NCBI GenBank assembly: GCA_937974415.1
Contig: CALJXB010000297.1
Location: forward strand, 1-15,992
Direction of reading: 5' to 3'
DNA from: an uncultured Kiloniellales bacterium
GTDB lineage: Bacteria; Pseudomonadota; Alphaproteobacteria; Kiloniellales; JAKSDN01
Length of the DNA: 15,992 nucleotides
A model generated the notes under the pieces. That model worked only from the letters and a program-made list of their open reading frames with translations. It had not been told where the DNA came from and ran no database searches. The translations under genes were made by a program, and so were the position numbers. This document shows positions 6,751-15,620 of this stretch, in pieces; within the stretch, counting starts at the first letter, position 1; each line of letters opens with the position of its first letter.

Positions 6751-7125
6751 TCAGGCGAGCGCGGCCCGCCGTGTCAGGCGTAGCTTGATGGGACTGCTTT
6801 CGTCGCCATCGACGACGGCATCGAGGATGAGGACGTCGCGCTCCAGGTTCGCCTCGAGGGTGCCGGTGAACGTGACCCTGTGCTCCTCGTTTGGGCCGAA
6901 CGGCGTGGGATCGACCCCGCCATGGCGGGTCGCCGTGAAGCGCCCGGTGAGGCCGAGGTTTTCGATCTGGTAGTCGCCGACGTAGTGGCAGTGGCTGTCG
7001 CCGCCGAACAGGCGCCCGGCCTGAAAGTAGTCGCCGAACACCCGGCGCAGGTGAAAGATCACGACGCCCGCCGGTACGGCCTCGTCGGCAAGCAGCACTT
7101 CCAGGCTCCAGAGCGCCTGCAGCAT
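6751..7125 (-). CDS. GrlR-like regulatory/beta-barrel family protein
   Basis: A 124-residue soluble protein. The pattern of an opening LWSLEVLLADE strand, AGVVIFHL, the GGDSHCHYVGDYQ segment (41-53), then LTGRFTATRHGG, VTFTGTLEANLE and a final LRLTRRA resembles the small proteins annotated as GrlR-family (T3SS negative regulator-like), which are common in alphaproteobacteria lacking that secretion system. The fold is probably a small lipocalin-like beta-barrel; the real role of these homologues is unknown. An AGGGG site lies about 8 bases before the ATG at 7125. It is 103 bases downstream of the AllG-like gene on the same strand, so it may be in the TetR-controlled unit. The assignment is from pattern memory and is moderate. 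Confidence 0.5.
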   Translation of the reverse strand: MLQALWSLEVLLADEAVPAGVVIFHLRRVFGDYFQAGRLFGGDSHCHYVGDYQIENLGLTGRFTATRHGGVDPTPFGPNEEHRVTFTGTLEANLERDVLILDAVVDGDESSPIKLRLTRRAALA

Positions 7126-7236: not shown

Positions 7237-8512
7237 CCGGGTAGCGTGCCCTGTAGGCCTCGGCCGCCGCGGTGAAGCAGGGCAGGGGCGCGCGCACCAC
7301 GCCGGCGCCGATCTGCCCACCGTCCTTGCCGGCGACGCCGATGTCCATGGCCGGCATGATGCCGGTCTCGATCACCCGGAAGATGTCGATCCCGGTGGGC
7401 GTCCCGCGATAGCCGAGATAGGGAATGTGGTAGTCCGGGTTCTCGCCGACGGTAATTGCGTAAAGCTCCTCGTTGCGGGCCACCATCGCCTGGGCGGAGC
7501 CGCCCTGATACTTTTGCAGGGGAAAGGCGCAGGCCTGGGCGAATCCGCCGAGCCCGATGGTCTCGGCAATGATGCTCTCGCCGCCCATCCAGGCGATCTC
7601 GTCCTCCGTGTGCCCGTCGAACAGCTTGGCCTGCACGTCGGCGTGGGGCCCGGTGAACCATTCGCCGCCGAGGCCGCTCACCCGGATCGCGAAGCCTTGG
7701 CAGTTGAAGGCCATGGCGGTCACCATGCTCGAGCCTTCGACGCCGTGGGCGTGGTCGGCGGTCGCCTTGGCCGCCGCCATGGAGAGGCGCAGGAAGAAGT
7801 AGTGGTCCTCGGTCAGCGCTGTCAGCGTCCTGTCGACGCCGTCCCGGTCGGTCGTTGCCAGGTCGATCAAGGCTGGGAACAGCTCGCGGGTGAACAGCAG
7901 AGAGGCAGCTGTGCTGCGGCTGTGCAGCTCGTCGCCCATGTGCAGCGCCCGCTTCATGATCGGCTTCAATGCGATGCCGCCCGTGCGGCGCACCGCCTCG
8001 CCGACCACCGGCGCAATCACGTCGTTGACGAAGTCTAGGCGCTCCTTCACCCCCTCGTCGTAGACGCCGTAGTTGAGGCGGCGTGGATTGGTGCCTTCGT
8101 ACATGTTGCAGAAGGCCCGGTTGTCGCCGGCCCGGTTGTCCACGACGAAGACCGGCATCGAGGCGCTGTAAACGCCGGCGAGCGAGCCGATGCACTTGTA
8201 GTCGTGGCAGCCGTCGACCTTGAGGTCGCCGGACGCGAACTTGGCGTCGGCCTCCTCGGGAGTCTTGGCGAGCCCCTCGAAGAGTGCGGCGCCGATGACC
8301 GCGTCGCGCTGGCCGCCGACGTAGTCGCCCCACGCCATCGGCGGCCCCGACGTCAAGATGGTCTCGCGGGCCATGCCCGGCACCACGTCGATGGCCGACT
8401 GCACATCCACCAGCACCGGATCGGCGCCGGAGAGCCGCTCGAAGGCCGCGCGGTTGGCCGCTTCGCGCGTGCCGCCGCCGCCATCGTCGCCACCGCCGTT
8501 CCCCGTGGCCAT
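7229..8512 (-). CDS. DUF1116 family protein, AllG/YlbE-like (oxamate carbamoyltransferase subunit homologue)
   Basis: A 427-residue DUF1116 protein. Features seen in order: a Gly/Asp-rich N-terminal tail (residues 4-14), GPPMAWGDYVGGQRDAVIGA (56-75), IGSLAGVYSASMPVFVVDNR (108-127), RALHMGDELHSRS (188-200), SSMVTAMAFNCQGFAIRVSG (261-280), GEWFTGP (283-289), and the very typical TVGENPDYHIP plus GYRGTPTGIDIFRV (354-380). E. coli AllG (YlbE) acts with AllF (FdrA) and AllH in oxamate carbamoyltransferase of ureide catabolism. No AllF or AllH partner is in this window, so the activity here is unproven. The frame is open to 8854, but the ATG at 8512 has GGGAGG upstream. An operator-like site lies 22 bases before it. 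Confidence 0.85.
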   Translation of the reverse strand: MATGNGGGDDGGGGTREAANRAAFERLSGADPVLVDVQSAIDVVPGMARETILTSGPPMAWGDYVGGQRDAVIGAALFEGLAKTPEEADAKFASGDLKVDGCHDYKCIGSLAGVYSASMPVFVVDNRAGDNRAFCNMYEGTNPRRLNYGVYDEGVKERLDFVNDVIAPVVGEAVRRTGGIALKPIMKRALHMGDELHSRSTAASLLFTRELFPALIDLATTDRDGVDRTLTALTEDHYFFLRLSMAAAKATADHAHGVEGSSMVTAMAFNCQGFAIRVSGLGGEWFTGPHADVQAKLFDGHTEDEIAWMGGESIIAETIGLGGFAQACAFPLQKYQGGSAQAMVARNEELYAITVGENPDYHIPYLGYRGTPTGIDIFRVIETGIMPAMDIGVAGKDGGQIGAGVVRAPLPCFTAAAEAYRARYPGQ

Positions 8513-8533
8513 CACAACCTCCCTTGATCTTTC

Positions 8534-8553
8534 AATTGATCGGTTAGTTAATG
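8534..8553. promoter_or_regulatory. TetR-type operator copy 1 (divergent AllG-like/tetR promoter)
   Basis: AATTGATCGGTTAGTTAATG lies between the divergent AllG-like gene and tetR. It matches the reverse complement of the site at 9445-9464 at 16 of 20 positions, sharing AATT, ATCGGT and TTAAT. It is 22 bases from the AllG-like start, where a bound repressor would block transcription. A possible tetR promoter overlaps it: TTGATC at 8523-8528 and GTTAAT at 8546-8551. Confidence 0.65.
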
Positions 8554-8675
8554 TAGGGGAGTTTGCATGATGGCCGTTCGGATTGGCAAGCGAGTCCGGG
8601 CGCGGTACCTTTGGCTCGATTGTTGGACGTGAACGATTTTTCTTTGCGTGGGGTTTTGTCGAGGGGAAGCGGTCC

Positions 8676-9371
8676 ATGGCGCGATTGCACGCGAGCCAGA
8701 AAGCCCGATCCCGGGGCAGGCCGCAGGGATCGTCGAGAAGCACGCCCTTCGACCGGCGCGAGGAACTTGCGGCCGTGGCGCTCGATCTCTTCGCCGAGCG
8801 CAACTTCGCCGCCGTGACCATCAAGGACATCGCCAACGCGCTCGGCGTCAACACCGCCTTGATCTATTACTACTTCCACAGCAAGGAAGACCTGTTCCGC
8901 GCCGCCATCGAATACGCCGTCGACCAGGCCTTCAAGAACTTCCGCCAATTACGAACCAGGCACGATAATCCCGCTGATATCATTGACGATTGGCTGAACA
9001 ACCACGTCCAACTCTATGCGCCGATCCATAAATTCGTGAAGATCAGCCTCGATTACCGGGGCGCCAAGACGAGCATTCCCGTCGTCGACCGGCAGGTGCG
9101 GCAGTTCTACGACGAGGAGAAGCGCATCCTCTCCGGCTGTATCCGTCAGGGCATCCAAGAGGGCCGCTTCGAGGCGGTCGACCCGGAAACCCTCGCATTG
9201 TTCATCTCGACCTACCTGGACGGCGTGATGGTGCGCTCGGTCATCCTCGACGATTTCGATCTCACCCAGGCGGTCGAACTGTTGCGCCGCGAGATTTGGG
9301 CCCAGCTCGGCTACAGCGGGGCCGAGGCGTCCTCCGACGCACTTGCCGCCGCCAACGCCAAAGGCCGCTGA
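8676..9371 (+). CDS. TetR/AcrR family transcriptional regulator
   Basis: A 231-residue repressor-type regulator. The N-terminal HTH is clear: FDRREELAAVALDLFAERNF, then AAVTIKDIANALGVNTALIYYYFHSKEDLF, with the YYYF-x-SKEDLF recognition-helix end typical of TetR. The C-terminal ligand-binding half (about residues 95-215) is helical and contains a conserved-looking HVQLYAPIHKFVKISLDYRG stretch; the ligand is not known. The frame is open to 8583, but the ATG at 8676 follows GAGGGGAAG and is the better start, just before the basic SQKARSRGRPQG tail. Matching operators on both sides of the gene imply autoregulation and control of the AllG-like gene and of the ligase-permease operon. Confidence 0.93.
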   Translation: MARLHASQKARSRGRPQGSSRSTPFDRREELAAVALDLFAERNFAAVTIKDIANALGVNTALIYYYFHSKEDLFRAAIEYAVDQAFKNFRQLRTRHDNPADIIDDWLNNHVQLYAPIHKFVKISLDYRGAKTSIPVVDRQVRQFYDEEKRILSGCIRQGIQEGRFEAVDPETLALFISTYLDGVMVRSVILDDFDLTQAVELLRREIWAQLGYSGAEASSDALAAANAKGR

Positions 9372-9732
9372 CCGTCGTCCGGGCTCGCTGCCACCGACCT
9401 CGAGAGTGGCAAAAGAGCCGCCCCATACAAGCCTCTCGGCAAGAAATTAATTGACCGATTAATTATCTGCGGGCATGCTTTGGCCGCCATAAAAAGACAC
9501 TAAGTCCCGATCAGAAGGGCGGCGCCGTTCGCACGGAAAGCCGCTCCGTCACATCGGAGAGATGGCATCGCGTCCGGCTCGGCTGGCGCTCTCAGGAGCG
9601 GACGCAAGGGGAGGTGCGAGACGGAACCGGACGGTTCCTCCAAGCGAAAACGAAAGTTCTCTTCCGGCGGTCGTATGCCCTGAGGCGCCGCGTACGCCGG
9701 GCATCCGACCAGCAATAGGGGAGGCAGGGTCG
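9372..9732 (+). promoter_or_regulatory. 361-base non-coding region with operator, promoter and long leader of the ligase operon
   Basis: This gap holds the second TetR operator (9445-9464), a candidate promoter with TTGACC (9451-9456, inside the operator) and CATGCT 17 bases further on, and then about 240 bases of leader before the ATG at 9733. In the leader, GAGAG (9557-9561) can pair with CTCTC (9589-9593), and GGAACCG-GA-CGGTTCC (9623-9638) is a 7-bp inverted repeat. A frame from 9562 is open through the leader but lacks family-like sequence. No known riboswitch was identified. Confidence 0.45.
9445..9464. promoter_or_regulatory. TetR-type operator copy 2 (upstream of the ligase operon)
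   Basis: AATTAATTGACCGATTAATT is a 7-6-7 inverted repeat: AATTAAT, spacer TGACCG, ATTAATT. It has the length and symmetry of a TetR operator and matches copy 1 at 16 of 20 positions in opposite orientation. It covers the candidate -35 hexamer TTGACC of the downstream operon, so binding should repress. It is strikingly AT-rich in this GC-rich region. Confidence 0.7.
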
Positions 9733-11172
9733 ATGGCGACAGCAACAGCGACAACGCCCGAAGGCAGCGGGACCGAGGAGGCCGCCTGGAGCCAGAGACG
9801 CGCGACCTTGACCGAAAACGGCGTCAAGTACTGCTTCGCCTCCTACGTCGACGCCCACGGCATTCCCAAGGGCAAGACCGTCCCGGTTCACCATTTCGAA
9901 CGCATGATGCGCGGCTCTGAGTTGTTCACCGGCGCCGCCCTGGACGGGCTTGGACAGGGCCCCCACGACGACGAGCTGGCCATTCATCCGGACCCCGAGG
10001 CCGTGGTGCAGCTGCCGTGGCGGCCGGAAATCGCCTGGGCGCCGGGAAATCTGAAATACCACGACGAGCCTTGGCCCATGTGCTCGCGCACGGTGCTCGC
10101 CCAGCAGGTGGAGCGGGCGGCCAAGCTGGGACTCCAGTTCAACCTGGGAATCGAATGCGAGCTCTACGTCGTCGACAATAGCGACGGCGCCGTGAAGCCG
10201 CACAATCCCAGGGACACCCTCGCCAAGGCGGCCTACGACTTTCTGCTCACATTGGAGAGCTACGAGTGGCTCGACGAGGTCGTCGGTTACATGAACCAGC
10301 TCGGCTGGGACGTCCATTCCTTCGACCACGAGGACGCCAACGGCCAGTACGAGTTCGATTTCGCCTATGCCGACGTCATGACCATGGCAGACCGTTACGT
10401 GTTGTGGCGGCTGCTGACCAAGGAAATCGCCCGGCGCCACGGCTGGGAGGCGACCTTCATGCCGAAACCCTATGCCGACCGGACCGGCAGTGGCTCCCAC
10501 TTCAACATGTCGCTGTCGTCCCTGGAGACGGGCGAGAATGTCAGCGGAGACAAGCGCGACCCGCGCGGCTGCGGGCTCTCCAAGTTGGCCTACCAGTTCC
10601 TCGGCGGCGTGAAGCGCCACGCCAAGGCGATCGTCGCAACCACCTGCCCGACCGTGAACTCTTACAAGCGCCTCATCAAAACCGGCTCCATGACCGGCTT
10701 CACCTGGGCGCCGATCTTCATCTCCTACGGCGGCAACAACCGCACCCACATGCTGCGCGTGCCGATGGTACGCCCGCAGATCGAGGGCGATGCCAACCCG
10801 AGCGAGGGCGTCTACCTCTCCAGCGCGCGCTGGGAGTGCCGGGCCGTGGATCCGGCGATGAACCCTTATCTGGCGGCCGCCATGATGCTGGGGGCGGGCC
10901 TCAACGGGATCGAGCAGGACATCGACCCGGGCGACCCCATCGACCTGAACATGTACGAGCTGAGCGACGACGAACTGCGCCAGCAGGGCGTCGCCGAGCT
11001 GCCGCGCACTCTGTTGGAGGCCATCGACGACTTCGCCGCCGACCCCTTGAGCGAGCAGGTCATGGGGCCGGAGCTAAGGCAGTCCTACATGGACCTCAAG
11101 TACGGCGAGTGGTGGGACTACCACAACCACGTGTCCGACTGGGAAATCGATACCTATCTGACCCGCTACTGA
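9733..11172 (+). CDS. glnT: Type III glutamate-ammonia ligase (GlnT) / gamma-glutamylmethylamide synthetase-like enzyme
   Basis: A 479-residue glutamine-synthetase-superfamily ligase forming a gamma-glutamyl amide from glutamate, ATP and an amine or ammonia. Features: a beta-grasp N-domain (VKYCFASYVDAHGIPKGKTV, 31-50); metal-site acids in GIECELYV (E141, E143) and EDANGQYEFD (E200, E207); the ATP/metal histidine in TGSGSHFNMSL (H256); NSYKRL (309-314); and the GlnT/GMAS-type FTWAPIFISYGGNNRTHMLRVP region (323-344) in place of the classic GlnA motif. It is longer than the roughly 435 residues usual for GlnT, partly by an Ala/Thr-rich N-terminus. The start follows GGGGAGG; the frame is open upstream to 9562. 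It leads a TetR-controlled operon, arguing for an amine-specific role rather than housekeeping glutamine synthesis. Confidence 0.88.
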   Translation: MATATATTPEGSGTEEAAWSQRRATLTENGVKYCFASYVDAHGIPKGKTVPVHHFERMMRGSELFTGAALDGLGQGPHDDELAIHPDPEAVVQLPWRPEIAWAPGNLKYHDEPWPMCSRTVLAQQVERAAKLGLQFNLGIECELYVVDNSDGAVKPHNPRDTLAKAAYDFLLTLESYEWLDEVVGYMNQLGWDVHSFDHEDANGQYEFDFAYADVMTMADRYVLWRLLTKEIARRHGWEATFMPKPYADRTGSGSHFNMSLSSLETGENVSGDKRDPRGCGLSKLAYQFLGGVKRHAKAIVATTCPTVNSYKRLIKTGSMTGFTWAPIFISYGGNNRTHMLRVPMVRPQIEGDANPSEGVYLSSARWECRAVDPAMNPYLAAAMMLGAGLNGIEQDIDPGDPIDLNMYELSDDELRQQGVAELPRTLLEAIDDFAADPLSEQVMGPELRQSYMDLKYGEWWDYHNHVSDWEIDTYLTRY

Positions 11173-11185
11173 GGACCGAGCCAGG

Positions 11186-12163
11186 ATGTTCTGGAAAAAG
11201 AACAAGAAGGCTGGCGAAAAGCTCACGATCTTCTTCGCCTCCGACCTGCACGGCTCGTCTGTCTGCTTCAAGAAATTCATCAACGGCGCTCAGTTCTACG
11301 GCGCCAGCGTCTTGATCATGGGTGGCGACACCACCGGCAAGGCGGTGATCCCGATCACCGAGCAGAACGACGGCAGCTTCCTCGGCTTTCAATCGGGCGC
11401 GGACATCCGGCTGAACGGCAGGGACGAGGTCGACGAGTTCATCAAGCGGGTGAACAATCAGGGCTTCTACCCCATCGTCATGACCGAGGACGAATTCCAG
11501 GCCCTCAAGGACGATGCGGAGGCGCAAGCCCAGCTATTCAAGAAGCTGGTCTGCGACCGCGTCCGGGAATGGTGCGATTTCGCGGGCGACAAGCTGAAGG
11601 GCACCGAGGTCCGGTTCCTGACCTCGCCGGGCAACGACGATTTCTTCGAGATCGACGAGATCTTCAACGGCGCGCCCCACGTCGGCTACCACGAAATGGA
11701 AGTGACCGAGCTGTCGGGCTACGAGATTCTCCACTGCGGCGGCTCGACCAAGACCCCCTGGGATACCGAGCGAGAATACAGCGAAGAGGAATATCAAAGG
11801 CGTTTCGCCGAACTGGTTCCCCAGGTCAAAGACATGGAGCGGTGCATCTTCAACGTGCACGTGCCGCCCTACGGCACGATTCTCGATCGCTGCCCCAAGC
11901 TCGACAAAGACCTGAAGGTCGTGTTCGACATGGGCAATCCGGTCTCGATGCAGGCGGGCTGCCAAGCTCTCATGGACACCATCACGGAGCAGCAACCGCT
12001 GCTGGGACTCCACGGCCACATCCACGAGGGCCGCGGCAATATCAAGATCGGGAGGACCACCTGCGTCAATCCCGGCAGCGTTTATCCGGAGGGAATCCTG
12101 CAAGGCGTGTTGGTGACCCTTCAGGGCGGCGAGGTCGCAAGCGTCCAGTTGACGCAAGGCTGA
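11186..12163 (+). CDS. Metallophosphoesterase, Icc-related (calcineurin-like)
   Basis: A 325-residue calcineurin-fold phosphoesterase with all metal motifs visible: SDLHG (D20, H22), MGGDTTGK (D48), SPGNDD (N150, D151), NVHVPP (H225) and LHGHIHEG (H278, H280). The opening ASDLHGS followed by FINGAQFYGASVLIMGGDTTGKAVIPI matches Icc-related predicted phosphoesterases (COG2129), where GNDD replaces the GNHD/E of classic enzymes and a charged insert of about 90 residues separates the second and third motifs. The substrate is unknown. There is no signal peptide, so it is cytoplasmic. It begins 13 bases after the ligase stop and must be cotranscribed with it, which implies a phosphorylated intermediate or nucleotide in the same pathway, or a regulatory role. 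Confidence 0.9.
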   Translation: MFWKKNKKAGEKLTIFFASDLHGSSVCFKKFINGAQFYGASVLIMGGDTTGKAVIPITEQNDGSFLGFQSGADIRLNGRDEVDEFIKRVNNQGFYPIVMTEDEFQALKDDAEAQAQLFKKLVCDRVREWCDFAGDKLKGTEVRFLTSPGNDDFFEIDEIFNGAPHVGYHEMEVTELSGYEILHCGGSTKTPWDTEREYSEEEYQRRFAELVPQVKDMERCIFNVHVPPYGTILDRCPKLDKDLKVVFDMGNPVSMQAGCQALMDTITEQQPLLGLHGHIHEGRGNIKIGRTTCVNPGSVYPEGILQGVLVTLQGGEVASVQLTQG

Positions 12164-12223
12164 GTCTGTCGCTGACCGAAGTCGGCTTCGCCTGACACCA
12201 GACCAGGAAAGGGGAAACGGACT

Positions 12224-13834
12224 ATGGCGCAAACAGGAGGAGAGCAGAGGATCTTTCTGCGCAAGGCCTCCGGGCTGATCCGGACGGCGAGCGGAACCGA
12301 TACCTTCATCTACAATCTCGGCCTCGTCAGCGTCGGACTTGGCGTGGCCAGCATCTTGTTCTACGGACCGGCCTATTATCCGGGCGGCGATCTCGTCTGG
12401 TCCTGCCTGCTCGCGGGCGTGTGCATGGCCATGATCGCTTTCGGCTTCATCACCTGGACCATCACCCTGCCGCGTTCGGGCGGCATCTACGTTTTCGGAT
12501 CCCGCATCCTGCCGCCGGGCCTGGCGCTGACCATGAGCCTGGTCGAGATCACGGCTTGGCTGTTTTACTGCGCCATCGCCGCCTATTGGATCATCCTGCT
12601 CGGGCTTTCGCCGGCATTGACCTTCATCGGTTACCTCTCCGGTAACGACGCCTGGGTCGCCGCCGGCGCCTGGGTGGTCGAGCCCTGGCCGCTGTTCCTC
12701 ATCGGCTCGGGCATTCTGGTGCTCTCCGGCATCATCCTGTCGGCCGGCATGAAGTTCTACCTCATGACCCAGCGGATCATCTTCACCTCGGCGCTGGTCG
12801 GCTCCGTGATCCTGATCGTCGTGCTGGCGACCGGATCCAACGCCGACTTCATCGTCAGCTTCAACCAGCTCATGGGGCCGATCCTCGAAGTCGACGAGCC
12901 CTACCAGGCGATCATTGCCTCGGGCAAGGAGAACGGCTGGGCCTGGGACGGCACGACCGATTGGGAACAGACCTGGCTGGTCTCCAACTGGCCCTTCCTG
13001 CCGCTGGTCGGCGCCGCCTTCTCCATCGCCATCGGCGGCGAGGTGAAATCGGTCGAGCGCTCCCAGACCTATGGCATGCTGGGCGCGGTCTGCGGAGCCA
13101 CCCTTCTTTGGGTCATCACGATCTCGCTGGCCACCAGCGTGTTCGGTTATGAGTTCCTTGGCACCGCCGCTTACAATCTCCTGGAAGGCGTCGGCGTTCA
13201 AACCGATCCGACCATCACGTTGCTGGCCGGCGTGCTGACCGGCTCGCCGTTGGTCTGTATTCTCGTTTCGCTCGGCTTCATGTTCTGGATGTGGATGTGG
13301 ATTCCGGGCATGCATACCTTCGGCGTGCGCGCCATCGTCGCCTGGTCGTTCGACCGGGTGGCCCCGGAGCCCTGGGCTCGCATCTCACCTACGCGCCACA
13401 CACCGGTGGTGGCGATCATCTTCACCATGTTCGTGAACATCTTGTTCATGGCGCTCTTCGTCTTCACCGAGTTTTTCTCAGCTATCGTGATTTTGATCGA
13501 GGCCGCGGTGCTGGCCTGGAGCGTTGTGCTGGGCGCGGGAATCTTCTTCCCCTACATGCGGCCCCAGATCTATGAGAAATCGCCGATCGCGACCAAAAAC
13601 ATCCTCGGGCTGCCGATGATGACCGTGGCCTGCGCCCTCGGCTTCGCGGCCTCCCAGTTCTACTTCTGGACTCTTTGGTCTGATCCGGTTGCCGCGGGCC
13701 ACGACCCGCAGCAGCTCATGATCGTGGCCGGTGTCTTCATCATCGGATTTGCCTTCTATTTCGTCATGAAACAGATCCGCAAAGCGCAAGGCGTCGACGT
13801 GACCCTCGCGTTCAAGGAGATACCGATCGAGTAA
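12224..13834 (+). CDS. APC-superfamily amino acid/amine permease
   Basis: A 536-residue inner-membrane transporter with about 12 hydrophobic spans, starting at 28-50 and ending at 498-516. APC hallmarks are LPRSGGIYVFGSR (82-94) at the end of the second span, AIGGEVKSVERSQTYG (269-284), the WMWIPGMHTFGVRAIVAWSFDRVAPE stretch (357-382) and ISPTRHTPVVAI (387-398). A soluble loop at about 222-255 is rich in Trp and acidic residues. Members import amino acids, amines or related nitrogen compounds by proton or sodium coupling; the substrate cannot be deduced. It follows the phosphoesterase by 60 bases, with AAAGGGGAAA before the start and a small CGAAG-TCGG-CTTCG hairpin in the gap. A terminator-like hairpin lies after the stop, so this is probably the last gene of the operon. 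Confidence 0.92.
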   Translation: MAQTGGEQRIFLRKASGLIRTASGTDTFIYNLGLVSVGLGVASILFYGPAYYPGGDLVWSCLLAGVCMAMIAFGFITWTITLPRSGGIYVFGSRILPPGLALTMSLVEITAWLFYCAIAAYWIILLGLSPALTFIGYLSGNDAWVAAGAWVVEPWPLFLIGSGILVLSGIILSAGMKFYLMTQRIIFTSALVGSVILIVVLATGSNADFIVSFNQLMGPILEVDEPYQAIIASGKENGWAWDGTTDWEQTWLVSNWPFLPLVGAAFSIAIGGEVKSVERSQTYGMLGAVCGATLLWVITISLATSVFGYEFLGTAAYNLLEGVGVQTDPTITLLAGVLTGSPLVCILVSLGFMFWMWMWIPGMHTFGVRAIVAWSFDRVAPEPWARISPTRHTPVVAIIFTMFVNILFMALFVFTEFFSAIVILIEAAVLAWSVVLGAGIFFPYMRPQIYEKSPIATKNILGLPMMTVACALGFAASQFYFWTLWSDPVAAGHDPQQLMIVAGVFIIGFAFYFVMKQIRKAQGVDVTLAFKEIPIE

Positions 13835-13904: not shown

Positions 13905-13932
13905 GGGCAAGAACCTGTGACGGAGTTTGCGG

Positions 13933-14718
13933 ATGGACGGCGCCAGCGACAATTTGCACCTGGAATTCGTCGACGTGGCTTTGCGCCTGGTTGAGGACGC
14001 GGAGGCGCGGGGCATTCAGCTTAGAATACTCGGCTCCATCGCCTACCGCTTGCAGTGCCCCAAGAACCTGCACCTGTTTCAGGATATGGCCCGGGTCCTC
14101 ACGGACGTCGATTTCGCCGGCCTCAAGAGTCAGAACCAGGAAGTCCGCGAGTTTTTCCTGACCCAGGGCTACAAGCCGGACGAAGGGGTTTACATGGCCT
14201 CGGAAGGCGCCCGCCACATCTATCTCCACCCCGAGACCAACCTCAATATCGACGTCTTCGCCAACGAGCTCTACTTTTGCCACCGCATCCCCTTCGAGGG
14301 CCGGCTCGACATCGACTTCCCGACCATATCCACGACCGACTTGCTTCTGGAGAAGATGCAGATCGTCGAGATCAACCTGAAGGACTTCAAGGATACCCTG
14401 GTGCTCATGCTCGAGCATCCGCTCGGCTCGCCGGCCGACGGCAACAAGCACATCGACGTTCGCTACATCTGCGACATGATGGCCCACGACTGGGGCTTCT
14501 ATCACACCTTCACGACCAACTTGCGGCGCGTGGAGGGCTATATCTCGGAGTTTCCCTCGATCACGCCGGCCGAAGGCGACACCATCCGCGGGCGCATCAC
14601 GGAGCTGCTGGAGGCCATCGATGCCGCGCCCAAGTCCATGAAGTGGAAACTGCGCGCCAAGATCGGCACCCGCAAGATCTGGTACCAGGAGGTGACGGAA
14701 AAGTCGGCGCAGTTCTAA
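13933..14718 (+). CDS. Nucleotidyltransferase-fold family protein
   Basis: A 261-residue cytoplasmic protein. Near the N-terminus ILGSIAYRLQCP (32-43) followed by LTDVDFAGL (56-64) gives the GS...DxD arrangement (G34, S35, D58, D60) of the polymerase-beta-like nucleotidyltransferase fold. The remaining sequence includes a beta-rich NLNIDVFANELYFCHRIPFEGRLDIDFP stretch with acidic residues that could supply the third catalytic Asp, and a helical C-terminus. The ATG at 13933 has GGAG 7 bases upstream; an in-frame TTG at 13927 is less likely. It lies after the terminator-like hairpin, so it may be expressed separately from the ligase operon, and it precedes the hydrolase by 53 bases. Its substrate is not known; I see no adjacent HEPN-type partner. 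Confidence 0.65.
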   Translation: MDGASDNLHLEFVDVALRLVEDAEARGIQLRILGSIAYRLQCPKNLHLFQDMARVLTDVDFAGLKSQNQEVREFFLTQGYKPDEGVYMASEGARHIYLHPETNLNIDVFANELYFCHRIPFEGRLDIDFPTISTTDLLLEKMQIVEINLKDFKDTLVLMLEHPLGSPADGNKHIDVRYICDMMAHDWGFYHTFTTNLRRVEGYISEFPSITPAEGDTIRGRITELLEAIDAAPKSMKWKLRAKIGTRKIWYQEVTEKSAQF

Positions 14719-14771: not shown

Positions 14772-15620
14772 ATGGCCGACGATTTCGACGCGTTTGTCGC
14801 CCGCCAGAAAAAAGTTGTGCTGGACGGGCTGTCCTATTTGCCGCTCGAGGTGGCCTACACGGACGTGGGCGAGGGCGATCCGGTGGTCCTGCTGCACGGC
14901 ATCCCCACCTGGTCCTACCTTTATCACGACGTCATCCCGCTGCTCGAACCGCACTGCCGGGTGCTGGCGCCGGACTTCCTCGGCCATGGCTACTCCGACC
15001 GCCGCGACCGCTTCGACCGTTCGCTCAGGGCCCAGACCCGGATGGTCCTGCGCCTGCTCGACGAACTGGGCATCGAAAAGGCCACCATCGTCGGCCACGA
15101 CACCGGCGGCGGCGTGGCCTTGATCCTGGGTATCGAGCATCCCGAGCGGGTCGCCCGGCTGGTCCTGACCAACGTGGTGGCTTACGACTCCTGGCCGATC
15201 GACGACATGATCGATCTCGGCAATCCCAACTGGCGCGACAAGCCGGCCGCCGAGGTGGCGGACTTCGTCGCCTCGGGCCTCGGCGACGGCCTGCACAACG
15301 CCGAGCGGCTGACGCCCGAGTTCGCCCGCAGTATCGTCGCCCCCTACAGCGACGAGGCGGGCAAGATCAGCCTGATCCGCAATGCCAGCGCGCTGAACAC
15401 CAACCACACCACCATGCTGATCGACCGCCACAAGGACATCGCCGCGCCGACCCTGGTGCTGTGGGGCGTGCACGACCCCTGGCAGACGATCGGCGACGGC
15501 GAACGGCTGGCCGAGGAGATCCCCGGCGCCCGGCTGGTGCGCCTGGAGAACGCCTCCCACTGGCTGCAGCAGGACGCGCCCGGGGACTTCGCCGCCGCGG
15601 TCCGCCGATTCATCGCCTGA
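14772..15620 (+). CDS. Alpha/beta hydrolase, haloalkane dehalogenase/epoxide hydrolase-like
   Basis: A 282-residue alpha/beta hydrolase. The oxyanion-hole motif LLHGIPTWSYLYHD (40-53), the nucleophile elbow VGHDTGGG with Asp110 as nucleophile, the acid WGVHDPW (D235) and ASHWLQQDAP with His263 complete an Asp-Asp-His triad. An Asp nucleophile points to haloalkane dehalogenases or epoxide hydrolases rather than esterases. The residue after the nucleophile is Thr111, where haloalkane dehalogenases normally have the halide-binding Trp; the Trp in the oxyanion motif (W47) might partly compensate. The substrate class is therefore open. There is no signal peptide. GAGGGGAG precedes the ATG. It is followed 96 bases later by aceK on the same strand. 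Confidence 0.85.
   Translation: MADDFDAFVARQKKVVLDGLSYLPLEVAYTDVGEGDPVVLLHGIPTWSYLYHDVIPLLEPHCRVLAPDFLGHGYSDRRDRFDRSLRAQTRMVLRLLDELGIEKATIVGHDTGGGVALILGIEHPERVARLVLTNVVAYDSWPIDDMIDLGNPNWRDKPAAEVADFVASGLGDGLHNAERLTPEFARSIVAPYSDEAGKISLIRNASALNTNHTTMLIDRHKDIAAPTLVLWGVHDPWQTIGDGERLAEEIPGARLVRLENASHWLQQDAPGDFAAAVRRFIA

Follow-up and report, generated by a model that had tools for sequence, protein, structure and literature searches.

Does a single TetR-family protein control the genes on both sides of its own gene? The window, which is the whole analysed stretch of 15,992 nucleotides, raises this question because tetR lies between a divergent AllG-like gene and a run of ligase and permease genes, with two similar short sites in the flanking intergenic regions. 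Judging from their conservation in related loci, we consider these two sites very probably to be operators bound by the TetR-family protein whose gene lies between them. The locus would then be a small regulatory circuit that governs a cluster not yet characterised, and the first-pass annotation, which proposed that one regulator could repress both sides and itself, appears largely right in its interpretation.

Organization of the locus

The window is an entire contig of assembly G000 (2,892,557 bases, 469 contigs, 69% complete). As shown in Table 1, the AllG-like gene is divergent from tetR, and the run 3′ of tetR consists of at least five genes, all on the same strand, in the order ligase, metallophosphoesterase-like protein, APC permease, a product lacking any Pfam match and alpha/beta hydrolase. 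The Pfam-less product we take to be nucleotidyltransferase-like, from a motif recognised by eye. We placed the start of tetR at 8676 instead of 8583, the start of the listed open reading frame, because close relatives begin at that methionine; with this start the divergent region is 163 bp long. Gene names rest on Pfam or tblastn, except for the FMN reductases of loci L012 and L021, which were named from blastp clustering. Gene calling from codon-position G+C was rough and mixed in antisense reading frames.

Table 1. Genes and candidate control elements in the window.
Feature	Position	Strand	Remarks
AllG-like protein (PF06545), 427 aa	7229..8512	-	252 bits; type seldom found alongside AllH
Operator-like site 1	8534..8553	+	divergent AllG/tetR region; centre about 31 bp 5′ of the AllG-like start codon
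TetR/AcrR-family regulator, 231 aa	8676..9371	+	TetR_N 7.2e-16, TetR_C_6 8.2e-9; start from alignment of relatives
Operator-like site 2	9445..9464	-	5′ of the ligase gene; plus strand carries TTGACC at 9451-9456, proposed as -35 hexamer of the ligase promoter
Proposed -10 element CATGCT	9474..9479	+	17 bp past TTGACC
Type III glutamate-amine ligase (glutamine synthetase superfamily)	9733..11172	+	TIGR03105; top solved relative is a glutamate-methylamine ligase
Metallophosphoesterase-like protein	11186..12163	+	Pfam score under cut-off; synteny
APC-type amino acid permease	12224..13834	+	AA_permease_2 2.3e-14; synteny
Conserved protein, no Pfam match	13927..14718	+	synteny
Alpha/beta hydrolase	14772..15620	+	closest NCBIfam model haloalkane dehalogenase, under cut-off; synteny

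Two further reading frames were seen in the window. A small Pfam-less gene (6751-7125) has its sole relative among the searched loci in L039 (41%), where it likewise adjoins AllG. An open frame of 593 codons on the minus strand (11534-13315) is antisense to the putative operon and is probably an artefact of high G+C.

Two similar sites flank tetR

Site 1 reads AATTGATCGGTTAGTTAAT on the plus strand (8534-8552) and site 2 reads AATTAATCGGTCAATTAAT on the minus strand (9446-9464). The first-pass annotation had described 8534-8553 and 9445-9464 as matching in opposite orientation at 16 of 20 positions, and this was confirmed in the sequence (16/19 over the consensus). The consensus, announced as 20 bp, holds 19 letters as printed. 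Both sites had also been called palindromes, which is true of site 2 (8 of 10 arm positions, centre 9454.5) and hardly so of site 1 (best 6/9, off centre); the symmetry of site 1 is poor for a homodimer operator.

When the intergenic regions 8513-8675 and 9372-9732 were compared without gaps, this pair gave the best match. When both regions were shuffled in pairs with dinucleotides preserved, 17 of 2000 shuffles reached 16/19, which puts chance at about 0.009 from the window alone. Since these shuffles did equally well, the window by itself backs only a moderate claim. The assertion that such a pair is unlikely by chance therefore holds moderately for the window, and conservation among relatives carries the case.

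In its own genome G000 the consensus matched only sites 1 and 2 at up to two mismatches, both with none. At up to three mismatches it matched three places, the third on another contig with three mismatches, and the pattern read backwards as a control matched two. With a wider degenerate pattern and two mismatches, the control equalled or exceeded the pattern count in 10 of 15 genomes, including G000 (3 vs 3); in the AT-rich genome of L012 the pattern gave 16 matches and the control 17. The pattern alone is thus no genome-wide site predictor.

The cluster and its sites are conserved in relatives

Relatives of the TetR protein occur in at least 6 of 385 genomes of the class, its own included (a lower bound, since at most six candidates per genome were scored), in 2 of 58 nearer relatives, again including its own, and in named genomes at 27 loci, a few of which, at the tail of the ranking, are distant. 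The organisms named for these loci are Alpha- and Gammaproteobacteria. No TetR relative was found on plasmids at 1e-30 or on viral contigs, where 11 stretches fitted a pattern and none was confirmed.

Under several organism names, an AllG-like gene is again linked to TetR and to a ligase-permease run. L012, L014 and L021 have the complete cluster from AllG through the divergent TetR and ligase to the hydrolase. L039 has everything except the hydrolase, L023 has all parts in a different order, and in L013, L016, L017 and L024 the cluster is visible up to the limits of short contigs. Sites lie at both promoters in L013, L014, L021 and L039, and also in L012 with a weak AllG-side site; L015 has one site per gene, the ligase-side one weak. 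Of 29 distinct TetR loci scanned, the window included, 24 hold a consensus match with at most four mismatches, some of which could be chance matches in AT-rich loci. No such match was found anywhere in L018, L025, L030, L034 or L041.

We compared sites scoring at least 15 with the sites of the window; for the ligase, a distance of over 60 bp to the start was also required. The ligase-side site was identical at 15-18 of 19 positions in 11 of 12 relatives and at 11 of 19 in L015. The 60-bp flanks on either side of it agreed at only 8-21 of 60 positions, which is near random; the compared sites had been chosen as best regional matches, which inflates their identity over that of the flanks, and the relatives are not independent. 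AllG-side sites of 13 relatives agreed with that of the window at 12-15 of 19 positions in the better orientation.

A position-weight model was then applied, leaving one locus out at a time, to 40 regions upstream of AllG or ligase genes at 25 loci with TetR. The set omits L006, L026, L034 and L041, which have no AllG or ligase match, and the distant L032 and L035-L038. Twenty-eight regions scored at least 18.7 and 12 scored at most 11.5. The 28 regions represent 26 distinct sites, because L031 and L042 each share one site between both genes. Twelve regions from loci without TetR scored at most 5.2, a comparison that favours the operator reading because these regions were scored by a model trained on sites from loci with TetR. 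Among background windows, 276 from loci without TetR scored at most 12.3, and 527 from loci with TetR had a 95% point of 8.4. The six highest printed windows of the latter set overlie other candidate sites (L015, L019, L039, L022).

The AllG-tetR regions of L013 (2740-2800), L014 (8750-8800) and L021 (8750-8800; all positions approximate) share two further stretches, TTAAGGCAACA and GCAAGTACGTG, read on one or other strand. Kinship of the three loci may be the simple cause.

The ligase-side site probably overlaps a -35 box

Ten of the 14 ligase-side sites scoring at least 15 carry TTGNNN-N17-NANNNT, and those of L015, L027, L029 and L033 show no fit to it. Eight of the ten have the form TTGACY-N17-CANNNT, which is also that of the window (TTGACC, CATGCT). 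The spacing TTG-N20-NANNNT at 10 of 14 sites corresponds to that of -35 and -10 boxes, so the operator probably lies over the -35 box. We infer the ligase promoter itself from this recurring rule: the rule was first spotted by eye, the relatives are not independent and a stricter, generic sigma-70 scan of 8400-9760 gave no match, so the promoter is best called putative. On the AllG side no clear promoter was recognisable by eye. There the start codon follows the centre of the site at 22-31 bp in the window, L012, L013, L014, L015 and L021; in eight further loci the distance is 36-70 bp.

Repression at both sites has one alternative that draws on the same layout. TetR could repress at one site only and act at the other as an activator, or chiefly on its own gene. 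The distances to the start codons do differ, with 22-70 bp for AllG and 36-278 bp for the ligase, and in L016 and L024, where tetR is close to the ligase gene, the sole site seen lies between AllG and tetR. We consider this arrangement unlikely, because the likely -35 overlap at the ligase and the near-start position at AllG both fit repression. L015 has an extra candidate site (four mismatches) about 200 bp ahead of tetR, which is in line with putative autoregulation.

Under repression at both sites, a ligand-free TetR dimer would bind site 1 and site 2. At site 2 it would mask the spacer of the ligase promoter together with its -35 box. Bound to site 1, it would cover the promoter or start region of the AllG-like gene, and could limit its own gene too. 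A ligand, presumably an imported nitrogen compound or an intermediate, would free TetR, and the AllG-like protein would be switched on jointly with the permease, the glutamate-amine ligase and the accessory enzymes. In some relatives the FMN reductase gene would probably be governed as well, and Rieske oxygenase or transporter genes perhaps.

The sites follow the regulator

The first-pass reading implied that the site is kept upstream of orthologous genes. It is indeed kept 5′ of 12 of 15 AllG orthologues at loci with TetR, and of 0 of 6 at loci without it (Fisher p 0.0015). When only loci with G+C of at least 0.58 were compared, the counts were 8/9 and 0/6 (p 0.0014). This test accepted up to four mismatches to the consensus of the first-pass annotation within 600 bp upstream and used no position-weight model. 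The site was present in L013, L014, L015, L016, L021, L023, L024, L028, L031, L039, L040 and L042; L012 (five mismatches) and L017 and L030 (seven each) were over the threshold. Not included were the window, which is the source of the consensus, L079, whose AllG upstream region lies beyond the contig end, and L018, L019, L020, L022, L025, L027, L029, L033 and L043, which have no AllG orthologue.

AllG orthologues of at least 60% identity were found at no fewer than ten places in at least nine other genomes among the 385. Three of those ten share their locus with TetR. At the other seven, tblastn found no relative of this TetR; one of them is L079, which is cut by the contig end. Together with seven loci of distant AllG, these seven give 14 loci without TetR, and none has a match with at most four mismatches. 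Genome G135 holds both kinds: the AllG gene adjoining TetR has a site (L039), and a second one (L080), which lies by a TetR of another type, has none.

AT-rich sites can serve several proteins, and the two sites might belong to another regulator, either a global nitrogen regulator or a local factor, with TetR in between by accident. That is quite improbable in view of the AllG orthologues without TetR, none of which has a site (0/6), including L080 in a genome with TetR elsewhere, and of the 0/14 count at loci without TetR. That the sites are ordinary AT-rich promoter DNA, alike by coincidence or common ancestry, agrees with the 17 equally good shuffles of the window and with the backwards control in 10 of 15 genomes, but it is hardly credible given conserved sites in near-random flanks and a contrast that persists at similar G+C.

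The same counts (12/15 vs 0/6) led us to reject the idea that the sites belong to the AllG-ligase pair instead of the regulator. The pair itself also occurs elsewhere. In L074, L075, L076, L078 and L080, AllG adjoins the ligase without this TetR, amid other catabolic genes and transporters; L074 and L078 have Rieske oxygenases, and L074 also has a 2-hydroxyacid dehydrogenase and PhyH dioxygenases. The AllG-ligase pair seems to be a module put under different regulators. In L018, L019, L020, L027, L029 and L033, a TetR relative is found with a ligase of about 45-53% identity and no AllG, in some cases with NMT1-type transport genes.

The regulator falls outside the named TetR subfamilies tried

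The protein scored above the cut-offs for PF00440 (58 bits, cut-off 24) and PF13977 (36 bits, cut-off 27), which places it in the TetR family. All 19 NCBIfam regulator models tried, AcrR and MtrR included, stayed under their cut-offs; BetI reached 47 bits (cut-off 201) and RutR 33 bits (cut-off 368). Across 35 aligned sequences N90, A92, L93 and Y95-F98 are invariant, and these residues are taken to be part of the presumed recognition helix.

TetR/tetA, RutR and BetI are divergent repressor systems with the regulator in the centre and operators in the adjoining promoters. The regulator of the window likewise sits in the middle of a divergent arrangement with candidate operators in the flanking promoters, and unlike BetI and RutR it falls below both NCBIfam cut-offs. 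Control of both a divergent neighbour and an operon downstream by one TetR is an arrangement known from other systems. Searches of open-licence papers gave no description of this regulator, nor of the AllG-ligase cluster.

The ligase and the AllG-like protein

The ligase scored 539 bits with the equivalog model for type III glutamate-ammonia ligase, TIGR03105 (cut-off 470). Its closest solved structures are 9qur (335 bits), a glutamate-methylamine ligase, and 7cql (306 bits), whose deposited name is type III glutamate-ammonia ligase; chains named glutamine synthetase reached at most 250 bits. This order makes glutamine synthesis a less likely reaction than gamma-glutamylation of an amine. The gene neighbours differ from those of the 9qur enzyme, its nearest solved relative in sequence, and from those of the gamma-glutamylethanolamide synthetase GlnA4, also a glutamate-amine ligase (PMC6529630).

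The AllG-like protein matches structure 3clq, which was deposited as uncharacterised. It has the PF06545 AllG domain in common with AllFGH of E. coli, whose oxamic transcarbamylase requires AllF, AllG and AllH according to PMC11326118. For nitrifiers, PMC12625717 describes allFGH together with allK, an arrangement unlike that of the window. AllH (PF11392) was not found in the 69% complete genome G000, and AllF was absent among the seven neighbouring proteins scanned in the window. AllH is present in 2 of 14 genomes with the AllG type of the window (G135 and G272; G135 also holds a distant AllG copy) versus 13 of the 16 genomes whose AllG relatives are all distant, several of these genomes sharing a genus. 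Since this AllG type seldom co-occurs with AllH, the AllG-like protein is probably no subunit of an oxamate carbamoyltransferase, and we rejected its assignment as an ordinary AllFGH subunit. In L049 (G272), the AllG relative has one in-frame TGA, which may reflect a pseudogene, a sequencing error or an alignment effect.

The cluster probably degrades a nitrogen compound; our guess is that the substrate is a small one imported by the permease. For a regulator not yet characterised, the analysis provides a predicted operator and a list of candidate targets. It also links an AllG paralogue with a glutamate-amine ligase and a permease, and in some relatives with an FMN reductase. Because such a regulon shows which genes belong together, it would narrow the search for the substrate and for a role of AllG outside oxamate carbamoyltransferase. 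A larger claim is conceivable, though we hold it with somewhat more doubt than confidence: the TetR would represent a subfamily not yet described, with an operator of its own, and would control a likewise undescribed catabolic regulon found across Proteobacteria. Within it, an AllG paralogue would work without AllH next to a methylamine-ligase-like enzyme, and a small nitrogen compound would be processed by a new route based on carbamoyl or gamma-glutamyl groups.

Further candidate targets

FMN reductase genes near TetR have a site upstream in three of six cases (L039, 6020-6038; L043, 6080-6098; L026, 8852-8870, the last with three mismatches). In these three loci the gene is likely a third target of TetR. 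No site was found upstream of the FMN reductase genes of L012, L014 and L021; that of L012 lies after the hydrolase, on the same strand. In L019 (three mismatches) and L020 (four mismatches, gene start uncertain), a site is found close to the gene for an NMT1-type binding protein, which is located ahead of the ligase gene. L015 has a site with three mismatches upstream of an ABC ATPase gene, and a Rieske oxygenase gene in L022 is preceded by a site at a distance of about 80 bp.
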